A stretch of DNA of 64,000 nt, taken from Conyzicola lurida (GTDB taxonomy: Bacteria; Actinomycetota; Actinomycetes; Actinomycetales; Microbacteriaceae). The stretch is from assembly GCF_014204935.1 (NCBI RefSeq), contig NZ_JACHMJ010000001.1, forward strand, positions 1,302,001 to 1,366,000, read 5' to 3'. The translations under genes and the position numbers were made by a program. How positions within the stretch are numbered: the stretch's first letter is position 1; every line of letters begins with the position of its first letter. The notes under the pieces were generated by a model, which was not told the origin of the DNA, did no database searches, and worked only from the letters and a program-made list of their open reading frames with translations. Below are positions 20,891 to 24,467 of the stretch, in pieces.

Positions 20891-22435
20891 GTGACCGCCA
20901 GGATTCCCCCGGTACTTCGACCGGAGCATCCGTCGGCCAAACCCCTCACGGCGCTGGCGACCGAGTTCGCGCTCGAATCGCGCGGCTCTCTCGACGGTAT
21001 CGAGATCACCGGCATCACCCTCAGCACGGGTGACCTGCACGCGGGGGACCTGTACGTCGGGATGCCGGGAGCGAACAGCCATGGCGCGAAGTACGCGGCT
21101 CAGGCCAAGGCGGGCGGCGCCGTGGCCGTGCTGACCGACGCCGCCGGTGCCGAACTCGCGGCAGACACCGGTCTGCCCATCCTCGTCGTCGACTCGCCCC
21201 GCGCCGCGCTCGGTGCCATCGCCGCCTGGGTCTACGACACGAACGTCAACCCGCCGCTGCGATTCGGCACCACCGGGACCAACGGCAAGACCAGCGTCTC
21301 CTACCTGCTCGACGGCATCCTCAAGCAGCTCGGCCGCACCACCGGTCTCAGCTCGACCGCGGAGCGACACATCGGCGACCTCGTCGTCGTCAGCCGCCTG
21401 ACCACCCCCGAGGCGAGCGAGATGCACGCCCTGCTCGCCCGCATGCGCGAGAGCGCCGTCGACGCCGTCGTTATCGAGGTCAGCGCGCAGGCGCTCAGCC
21501 GCCACCGGGTCGACGGCATCGTCTTCGACGTCGTCGGGTTCACCAACCTGAGCCACGACCACCTCGACGACTACGCCGACATGGAGGAGTATTTCCAGGC
21601 GAAGCTGCCGCTCTTCCAGCCCGACCGCGGCACGCGCGGCGTGATCTCGCTCGATTCCCCGTACGGCGCGCGCGTCGTGGAGGAAGCCGGCATCCCGGTC
21701 ACCACCATCTCGTCGACGCCCGGCGTCGTGGGGGACTGGAACGTCGACATCACGGCCGAGGAGGCCGCGTTCACGGCGTTCACCCTCACCGCGCCCGACG
21801 GACGCGAACTGTCGAGCCGCGTGCCGATCATCGGCCGCCACATGGCCGCCAACGGAGCGCTCGCCATCGTCATGCTGGTCGAGGCCGGCTTCGAGCTCGA
21901 CGAGATCGCCGCCGCACTGGAGAAGTCCGGGGGCATCGAGGCGTACCTGCCCGGCCGCACCGAGCGCGTCTCGGGCGACCGCGGCCCCGCCGTGTTCGTC
22001 GACTTCGGTCACAGCCCCGACGCCTTCCTCAACACGCTCGCCGCCGTGCGCACGTTCACCCGCGGCAAGGTCGTCATGGTGTTCGGCGCCGACGGCGACC
22101 GCGACGCCACCAAGCGGCACGAGATGGCCCGCGTCGCCTCCGAGGGGTCCGACATCCTCGTCATCACCGACCACCACCCGCGCTTCGAGAACGCCGCCTC
22201 CATCCGCGCGACACTCGTCGAGGGCGCGCACCTGGCCGAGCACGAGGCGGAGCTGCACGAGGTGAGCCCTCCCGAGAGCGCCATCCGCACCGCCGTCGGC
22301 CTCGCCGGCGAGGGCGACTCGATCCTCTGGGCCGGCCCCGGCCACCAGGACTACCGCGACATCGAGGGTGTCCGCACGCCGTACTCCGCGCGAGAAGAAG
22401 CGCGCGCCGCCCTGCGCGAAGCCGGTTGGGCGTGA
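20891..22435 (+). CDS. murE: UDP-MurNAc-dipeptide ligase MurE, unusual specificity loop
   Basis: Adds the third residue (a diamino acid in most bacteria) to UDP-MurNAc-dipeptide using ATP; 514 aa. The P-loop GTTGTNGKTS (K133) is intact, as are NLSHDHLDDYADMEEYFQAK (carbamoylated-Lys region) and GRHMAANGALA. Two usually conserved places differ: the expected VDYAHTPDAL reads VDFGHSPDAF (D371 to F379), and the DNPR-type amino-acid specificity loop reads DHHPRFE (D427-E433). The family uses that loop to read the incoming diamino acid, so the substrate here is uncertain. GTG 20891; overlaps the next gene by 4 nt. Confidence 0.9.
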   Translation: MTARIPPVLRPEHPSAKPLTALATEFALESRGSLDGIEITGITLSTGDLHAGDLYVGMPGANSHGAKYAAQAKAGGAVAVLTDAAGAELAADTGLPILVVDSPRAALGAIAAWVYDTNVNPPLRFGTTGTNGKTSVSYLLDGILKQLGRTTGLSSTAERHIGDLVVVSRLTTPEASEMHALLARMRESAVDAVVIEVSAQALSRHRVDGIVFDVVGFTNLSHDHLDDYADMEEYFQAKLPLFQPDRGTRGVISLDSPYGARVVEEAGIPVTTISSTPGVVGDWNVDITAEEAAFTAFTLTAPDGRELSSRVPIIGRHMAANGALAIVMLVEAGFELDEIAAALEKSGGIEAYLPGRTERVSGDRGPAVFVDFGHSPDAFLNTLAAVRTFTRGKVVMVFGADGDRDATKRHEMARVASEGSDILVITDHHPRFENAASIRATLVEGAHLAEHEAELHEVSPPESAIRTAVGLAGEGDSILWAGPGHQDYRDIEGVRTPYSAREEARAALREAGWA

Positions 22436-23337
22436 GCCTCCAGGTAGCGCCCCACCGCGGACTCGCGACGACGACGGCCCTCGTGGGCGCGGTCGTCGCG
22501 GCCGCCGCCGGGGAGCGCGACGTGATCGTGCTTCTCGGCGACCCCGGCGAGCTCGTACCCTCCACCGACCCGGTCGTCGTGGTGCTGGCGGATGACGCGG
22601 CCCTCGTCACCGCCGGGTCCACGATCCGCGCCGACCACGCCGTCGCCACCGTGGGGTACTCCGCCGGCGCCGACACCCGCGCCACCGACATCGCGGTCGA
22701 CGTCGAGGGAACCGGTTTCGTCGCGCTGCGCCACGGCGTCGCGCTTCCCGTGCGTCTCGCCCTCGTCGGCGAGCGGCACGTGCCCGCCGCCCTCGCCGCG
22801 CTCGAGGTCGGGCTGCAGCTCGGCCTGCCGCCCGAGACCGCCGTCGCGGCCCTCGCCGCGGTCACCTCCGCCGAGAGCGGGAACCTCGAGACCGCGGCAT
22901 CCGCCCACGGCCGGCGCCTCATCGACGACGGGTACGACCTGACGCCCCTCTCCACGACGGAGGCCCTCAAGACCCTCGCCGAGATCACCCGCGACAGTGC
23001 CCGGTCGATCGCCGTGCTCGGCGAACTCGACCTGCCCGCCGGCACCGGCCCGCAGGAATCGCGCGAGGAGCACGACCGCATCGGCCGTCTCGTCGTGCGG
23101 CTCAACATCGACGCGCTCATCGTCATCGGGCAGTCGGCACGGCACATTCACAACGCGGCGGGCCTCGAAGGTTCGTGGGACGGGGAGTCGGTGCTCGTCG
23201 ACACCGCCGAGGAGGCATACGATTTGCTCACTGACCAACTGTCCGAGCGGGGTAGCGACACCGTCGTCCTCGTGAAGTCTCCGTTCTCCGACCGGCTTCG
23301 TGCTCTCGGCGCCACAATCGAAAGCGTGTCCGCATGA
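22432..23337 (+). CDS. Truncated MurF-like protein lacking ATP-binding core
   Basis: Occupies the murF slot between murE and mraY but is only 301 aa, against ~450-500 for MurF. Residues ~50-155 match the MurF stretch after the ATPase core ([28 protein letters not shown] at 110-127) and the rest matches the C-terminal ligase domain ([17 protein letters not shown] at 163-179, [28 protein letters not shown]). The N-terminal UDP-binding domain and the GxxGKT P-loop are absent, and the usual DAYNANP is DGYDLTP. It is translationally coupled to both neighbours (GTGA and ATGA overlaps) with no stop or frameshift, so it is probably expressed. It cannot be an ordinary MurF; scaffold, regulatory subunit or decaying gene are all possible. 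Confidence 0.8.
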
Positions 23338-24467
23338 TCGCACTCCTGACCGGAGCGGCCTTCTCGCTGGTCTTCACTCTGCTCACCACGCCCCTGTTCA
23401 TCAAACTGTTCAACCGCATCGGCTGGGGACAGTTCATCCGCGACGACGGTCCGCAGTCGCACCACGCCAAGCGCGGCACGCCGACCATGGGCGGCATCGT
23501 GTTCATCATCGGCGCGGTGCTCGGCTACTTCGTCGGGCACCTCATCGCGCGGGAGCCGTTCACCCTCGTCGCCTTCCTGGTCATGTTCCTCATGGTGGGC
23601 CTCGGCGCGGTCGGTTTCCTCGACGACTTCCTGAAGACCCGTAACCAGCGCAGCCTCGGACTCGGCGGCTGGTCGAAGATCCTCGGCCAGGTCATCGTCG
23701 CCGCCATCTTCGCGGTGATCGCGCTCAACTTCCCCGACGAGAACGACCTGACGCCGGTGTCGAAGATCCTCGACGGCGTGCAGCACACCTACATCTCGTT
23801 CGTCCGTGACATCGAGTGGCTCGACTTCGCCACGTTCGGGCTCATCGGCGGCGGCATCCTGTTCGCCATCTGGTCGATCGTGATCGTGGTCAGCGCCTCG
23901 AACGGCGTCAACGTGGCCGACGGTCTCGACGGTCTCGCGACCGGCGCGTCGATCCTCGCCTTCACGTCGTACATCTTCATCGGCTTCTGGCAGAACAACC
24001 AGTCCTGCTACAACGTGAACGTGCAGGAGAGCGTCGAGAACTCGTTCCGCTGCTACCAGGTGCGCGACCCGCTCGACCTCGCGGTCATCGCGGCCTGCAT
24101 CGTGGGAAGCCTCATCGGCTTCCTCTGGTGGAACACCAGCCCGGCGCAGATCTTCATGGGCGACACCGGCTCGCTGGGCCTCGGCGGCGCACTCGCCGCC
24201 CTCGCCATCCTCAGCCGCACCGACCTGCTGCTCGTCTTCATCGGCGGACTGTTCCTCATCGTCACCGGTTCGGTGATCCTGCAGCGCATCTACTTCAAGC
24301 TCACCAAGGGCAAGCGCATCTTCCTGATGAGCCCGCTGCACCACCACTTCGAACTCAAGGGCTGGGCCGAGATCACCGTCGTGGTGAGGTTCTGGATCAT
24401 CGCCGGCCTGTTCGTCGCCGCGGGCATCGGAATCTTCTACGTCGAATGGGCGTTGGCCCGACCGTGA
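23334..24467 (+). CDS. mraY: Phospho-MurNAc-pentapeptide transferase MraY
   Basis: Integral membrane enzyme making lipid I from UDP-MurNAc-pentapeptide and undecaprenyl phosphate; 377 aa with about ten membrane helices. Motifs: [28 protein letters not shown] (DDxxK), [25 protein letters not shown] and [13 protein letters not shown]. An extracytoplasmic loop near residues 220-245 carries two Cys ([16 protein letters not shown]), possibly a disulfide. Confidence 0.96.

Follow-up and report, generated by a model that had tools for sequence, protein, structure and literature searches.

A predicted membrane Mur ligase with its own Ddl has likely displaced MurF in a Microbacteriaceae genome that keeps a MurF core between murE and mraY

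In the Microbacteriaceae genome analysed here, a Mur ligase with predicted membrane helices (TM-MurF) and the divergent Ddl encoded beside it have likely displaced canonical MurF and Ddl, and the core of the former MurF likely persists in the murF slot as a non-catalytic accessory. Displacement is read from sequence: neither a MurF nor a canonical Ddl exceeds its family cut-off, the motifs of TM-MurF are intact, TM-MurF co-occurs with MurF loss, its cassette has a conserved order, and the core of the remaining murF fragment is under selection.

Results

The murF slot holds a truncated MurF

The window, that is, the whole 64,000-nucleotide stretch analysed (G000:C1:1302001-1366000), belongs to a source genome, G000, that consists of a single 3.64-Mb contig. 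Open reading frame (ORF) calls, NCBIfam and Pfam identified murE (20891..22435, plus strand; 514 aa) with all three Mur ligase domains, and mraY (23334..24467, plus strand) was identified by ORF call and Pfam. The murF slot between them is occupied by an ORF of 301 aa (22432..23337, plus strand), hereafter the remnant, which was characterised by ORF call, NCBIfam, Pfam, alignment and a predicted model. Its assumed start codon is the GTG at 22432, and the longest ORF call opens at TTG 22426. The remnant overlaps the end of murE at 22435 and the ATG of mraY at 23334 by 4 nt each, in agreement with the overlaps with both neighbours that an earlier note had read from the letters alone.

The NCBIfam MurF profile TIGR01143 matched the remnant with 80.5 bits (cut-off 288.6) and only over profile positions 186-406 of 418, which bears out the description of this ORF as MurF-like in its middle and C-terminal part. 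No Pfam domain was found in it at E<=1. Since the match is limited to positions 186-406, the ORF lacks the UDP-binding domain and the P-loop, together with most of the ATP-binding half. We aligned 11 remnants (from nine TM-MurF genomes, G029 and G044) with 26 canonical copies. No P-loop GxxGK[ST] was present in the remnant, either in its sequence or in the alignment with full-length relatives; residues 1-25 align to the surroundings of the P-loop without GxxGKT, and the NDAYNASP of full-length relatives reads DDGYDLTP. The profile match and the realignment thus support the earlier claims that the ORF has no UDP-binding N-terminal domain and no GxxGKT, and that its DAYNANP motif is degraded. 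The predicted model had a mean pLDDT of 91.3, and its best PDB matches were MurF structures.

The note had itself named a normal P-loop or an assembly error as grounds for doubt. Realignment revealed no such P-loop, and a sequencing or assembly error is unlikely, because G000 is one contig and equivalent remnants occupy this slot in relatives whose genomes were assembled independently.

A Mur ligase with predicted membrane helices lies outside the window

The earlier note had left two readings. In one, a complete murF lies at another place and this copy has become an accessory or scaffold; in the other, D-Ala-D-Ala is added by other means. The genome-wide profile search for a full-length canonical MurF that the note proposed found none over the TIGR01143 cut-off in G000, so this part of the first reading fell; the accessory copy and a ligase of different architecture, one part of each reading, stood. 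The genome contained two PF01225 places and six PF08245 places. The best TIGR01143 match was TM-MurF, a protein of 515 aa (G000:C1:2323925-2325469, minus strand) whose residues 164-505 align with profile positions 65-402 (E 3.7e-55). With 187.6 bits it lies under the MurF cut-off of 288.6, and MurF is still its best family. Pfam detected Mur_ligase_M and Mur_ligase_C in TM-MurF and no UDP-binding N domain (PF01225). Among the 50 Foldseek matches listed for it, MurF came first, and the 361-442 aligned columns fit the Mur domains.

The catalytic motifs of TM-MurF are kept. The P-loop G180-T185, S207, N209, N210, E232, H262 and K276 were each conserved in at least 97% of 86 sequences, a set that skipped L117 and L125, and D399, D400, N403, N405 and P406 reached the same level. 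In the predicted model (mean pLDDT 95.0), helices 2-29, 36-47, 49-67, 69-83, 102-126, 129-136 and 138-171 precede the P-loop. A hydropathy scan before residue 200 gave four hydrophobic segments in the G000 protein; 85 relatives had between one and five. From the scan and the model together, these helices are predicted to be membrane helices standing in place of the UDP-binding domain. The helical part also contains residues conserved in at least 97% of the 86 sequences (R25, Q28, R29, H31, Y32, W44, T101 and R103), which suggests a binding role for this part beyond anchoring. TM-MurF probably performs the essential MurF step in G000.

A split enzyme formed by the remnant and TM-MurF is not favoured, because TM-MurF has its own C domain. 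TM-MurF had no match in the plasmid collection searched.

TM-MurF is encoded beside a divergent Ddl

The gene order in G000 is murA, acyltransferase, gpsA, alpha/beta-hydrolase, TM-MurF, Ddl and thiL, with the hydrolase ahead of TM-MurF at L210 7467-8252 (minus strand). The Ddl scored 154.4 bits with TIGR01205, under the cut-off of 245.65, and its Pfam Ddl N-terminal (57.2 bits) and C-terminal (70.2 bits) domains were both above their cut-offs. A scan of named genomes yielded at least 530 TM-MurF relatives among 592 stretches; Marisediminicola senii and Microcella pacifica are examples of cultured environmental species that carry the cassette. In the best 80 loci of these, a Ddl adjoined TM-MurF in 72 of the 76 loci with room for it, and an alpha/beta-hydrolase did so in 76 of 78. 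All eight family TM-MurF relatives fetched have gpsA upstream and thiL downstream of the cassette. In the canonical genome G042, a congener of G114, the order is gpsA-ddl-thiL, so the cassette occupies the place of ddl in that relative.

A canonical Ddl over the cut-off was found in 8/8 canonical controls versus 1/9 TM-MurF genomes, the one being G111, where it lies beside an extra MurF. Each of the 19 genomes in the Ddl search has a Ddl-like gene that stays below the cut-off, with scores of 203-232 bits. In G000, a second Ddl-like ATP-grasp gene lies at 3400475-3401362 (L211; 223.6 bits, under the TIGR01205 cut-off) and could be a source of D-Ala-D-Ala. A D-Ala-D-Lac wall in G000 is not favoured: the divergent Ddl scored 76.4 bits against the 550 required of a D-Ala-D-Lac ligase, and it keeps the YSYADKY loop, which we take as a sign against that type.

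TM-MurF goes with MurF loss across the phylum

We compared the locus across relatives, as the earlier note had advised. Among 120 genomes of the family, taken to be Microbacteriaceae from its named relatives, nine (G000 and eight others) have TM-MurF at >=50% identity, and the dcw murF is truncated in the same slot in all nine. By comparison, the 26 canonical loci examined, which were the best-matching ones, all have GSNGKT. Two further family genomes, G029 and G044, also have a truncated dcw murF. In G044 the divergent Ddl stops at a contig edge, with two residues and the stop left to compare, and TM-MurF could sit beyond that edge. G029, which has no TM-MurF, encodes a full MurF in the vicinity of a VanH-like dehydrogenase and of a ligase of the D-Ala-D-Lac type (549.9 bits, cut-off 550; L096 4281-8341), a different route to MurF replacement.

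Among 248 genomes of the phylum, 221 have a MurF over the cut-off and 23 have TM-MurF at 1e-45 or better; in eight of the 23, all of one family (f9), the match starts only at residues 104-146, leaving the N-terminal part outside it. None of the 23 has a MurF over the cut-off. Four genomes have neither, one of which (G188) has a MurF split across two contigs.

A survey of the named collection covered 49 TM-MurF genomes, with 50 of the 80 loci hand-picked for spread; the completeness of these genomes is not stated, so absence weighs less there. Some of them are the same as, or close to, genomes of the other survey (e.g. L098/G114, L103/G067, L108/G074 and L120/G104), and the counts of the two surveys are therefore not additive. 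Three of the 49, all Nocardioides, have both TM-MurF and a MurF over the cut-off, as does G111, a genus-mate of G000, which indicates that the two enzymes can coexist. In G111, besides TM-MurF and the dcw remnant, consecutive genes encode a full MurF, alanine racemase and Ddl (L079 3763-7708).

We inspected the mraY locus in 30 of the 49 genomes. A separate remnant was present in 15, a MurE-fused fragment in four and none was found in 10; one locus was not judgeable. Two of these 10 are Nocardioides with a MurF elsewhere. The fused cases, three Actinotalea and one related MAG (L190, L192, L193 and L194), have a MurF C-domain fragment joined in frame to the C-terminus of MurE. Since 10 of the 30 TM-MurF genomes yielded no remnant between murE and mraY, the dcw fragment is not always needed.

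These counts bear on the reading in which TM-MurF does other work, for example on another polymer, and a broad-specificity MurE or MurC adds D-Ala-D-Ala, perhaps with help from the remnant. A TM-MurF score under the curated MurF cut-off and the coexistence with MurF in G111 and three Nocardioides would suit it, but the best family of TM-MurF is MurF, a Ddl adjoins it in nearly all of the best 80 loci with room, and TM-MurF goes with MurF loss in 23/23 phylum genomes and with dcw truncation in 9/9 family genomes. We therefore consider this reading very improbable.

In a tree of TM-MurF (81 rows; L098, L103, L108, L120 and L126 omitted as duplicates), 29 rows from Microbacteriaceae and actinobacterial bins formed one clade (100/99) next to Actinotalea. 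A mostly acidimicrobial group lay across the root, with two Acidobacteria bins nested inside it that may be misbinned. In a quick tree of MraY, with 54 rows and 20 open forks, TM-MurF genomes were scattered among canonical ones: Marisediminicola grouped with a canonical row (99), and G000 and G037 belonged to a six-row group (92) of which three rows were canonical. The canonical rows of this tree were the best-matching 26, not a random draw, and G029, which has no TM-MurF, and Nocardioides luteus were labelled as TM. The scatter suggests that MurF was swapped for TM-MurF several separate times; a possible alternative is that canonical murF returned in some lineages. Alignment A2 did without 12 of the 26 canonical copies, the four copies fused to MurE and L187, which has unknown bases. 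From alignment A3, rows that were nearly identical were dropped, and L121, L131, L143 and L171 were taken out manually.

The remnant core is under purifying selection

A test of the dN/dS type, also proposed in the earlier note, was run on the remnant as pN/pS and separated a constrained core from near-neutral flanks. For G000/G037, pN was 0.147 and pS 0.284 in the core (residues 174-266; 22951..23229, plus strand), whose borders were chosen post hoc from the alignment, versus 0.514 and 0.505 in the flanks. Nonsynonymous change differed between core and flanks with Fisher p of 7.6e-20 (G000/G037), 2.5e-12 (G000/G111) and 1.5e-14 (G037/G111), the three pairs being mutually non-independent. Synonymous change in the core was also below that of the flanks, clearly so for two of the three pairs (p=0.002, 0.12 and 0.013, in the same order), and for G000/G037 the core pS was near that of murE (0.365) and mraY (0.294). 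Over 55 remnant pairs, mean identity was 0.498 in the core, 0.295 in the tail and 0.225 in the N part. Canonical copies show no such drop, with mean identities of 0.753 in the tail and 0.756 in the core. The remnant core is under purifying selection at the protein level and its flanks are near neutral, a pattern that fits an accessory role for the remnant.

The flanks would suit a decaying pseudogene that stays open only since translational coupling of murE and mraY punishes frameshifts, with the core as a case of slow decay. The most eroded remnants (G030 and G104), which keep little beyond EGSWDGES and AYD, and the third of inspected TM-MurF genomes in which no remnant was found point the same way. 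Against slow decay, pN in the core is far below that of the flanks while its pS is near that of murE and mraY, the same core recurs in genomes scattered among canonical ones in the MraY tree, and four Actinotalea-type genomes have the fragment joined to MurE in one reading frame. We regard simple decay as unlikely.

A codon-bias patch lies near the 3' end of the remnant

Across 455 codon columns of 26 full-length family murF genes, the strongest synonymous biases clustered at codons 420-440. Among columns with at least five observations, five of the 10 top-biased ones fell there (p=2.8e-5, for a window picked after seeing the list). In the remnant, the cluster covers codons 251-271 (23182..23244, plus strand) and includes TACGAT at 23218-23223, of which TAC is kept in 11/11 and GAT in 10/11 remnants. 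This patch is a possible internal promoter or other embedded DNA element ahead of mraY. No sigma-70-like promoter was found in 22300-23500.

The bias patch means that part of the retention of the remnant may act at the DNA level, and it may be an extra reason to keep the 3' end. A stronger version, in which the 3' end is kept mainly for an inner DNA or RNA element, such as a promoter for mraY and downstream genes, and not for its protein, draws on the clustered bias and the conserved TAC and GAT. It is set against silent sites that vary over most of the core while residues hold, a bias confined to the last part of the core, the negative promoter search and MurE fusions that retain the protein part. 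We find this version unlikely, though slightly less so than simple decay.

Discussion

We infer the reactions, the topology, and the expression and docking role of the remnant as follows. A linked pair far from the dcw cluster, TM-MurF and the divergent Ddl with a hydrolase in front, would replace canonical MurF and Ddl. The divergent Ddl would make D-Ala-D-Ala; TM-MurF, working with ATP on the cytoplasmic side of the membrane, would join it to the muramoyl tripeptide. The dcw murF, freed from catalysis, would lose its UDP-binding domain and ATP site. In the leftover ORF selection would act only on the C-domain core of ~93 aa, whose most likely role is to provide docking for MurE or for a complex on the MraY side.

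The Actinotalea fusion points to MurE as the partner of the fragment. In Bordetella pertussis, a MurE-MurF fusion is reported to bind MurG, the proposed scaffold of a Mur enzyme complex (PMC6420597); by analogy, a MurF part could plausibly act in docking. As in Actinotalea, MurF sequence there follows MurE; unlike in Actinotalea, where the fused part is a MurF C-domain fragment only, the Bordetella fusion is bifunctional.

TM-MurF resembles MurF (TIGR01143) in its middle and C domains and catalytic motifs, and the remnant does so in its slot and its partial profile match. TM-MurF differs in that predicted membrane helices replace the UDP-binding domain; the remnant differs by the loss of the ATP site. 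A parallel for the missing domain is MurT of MurT-GatD, a Mur ligase homologue without the UDP-binding domain; PMC6113224 argues that the domain is unneeded because the substrate is lipid-linked, and that it would clash with the membrane. However, MurT amidates together with GatD, whereas the partner of TM-MurF is a Ddl, its best-scoring family is MurF and membrane helices are predicted in it. The analogy with MurT raises the possibility that lipid I or II is the TM-MurF substrate; the TM-MurF sequence is equally compatible with UDP-MurNAc-tripeptide being used at the membrane. A fuller form of the lipid-linked reading takes the lipid-linked tripeptide (lipid I/II) as the TM-MurF substrate, with MraY working before the last ligation and the remnant linking MurE with MraY or TM-MurF as a dedicated non-catalytic subunit. 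We put this forward tentatively and consider it rather doubtful.

Actinobacterial vanHAX clusters with a co-localised murF (PMC8698665) likewise place a second murF beside a Ddl-type ligase outside the dcw cluster, and G029 is comparable. Unlike in those clusters, the neighbouring ligase of TM-MurF does not score as a D-Ala-D-Lac ligase (76.4 versus 550 bits), and the N-terminal part of TM-MurF is different. A literature search judged by titles and the starts of abstracts, with most subscription papers and preprints outside its scope, brought up no paper that describes a membrane MurF or remnants of MurF. We read the system as the Mur ligase pathway with its last ligase likely displaced and a MurF fragment retained.

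Wall synthesis is regarded as universally dependent on MurF, which is also treated as a drug target. In the phylum sampled here, 23 of 248 genomes appear to depend on a membrane-embedded replacement for MurF with its own Ddl. Such a replacement could alter where the MurF step happens and what inhibits it. Because catalysis and the MurF core are separated in these bacteria, they offer a direct way to ask whether Mur ligases also serve a structural purpose apart from catalysis.
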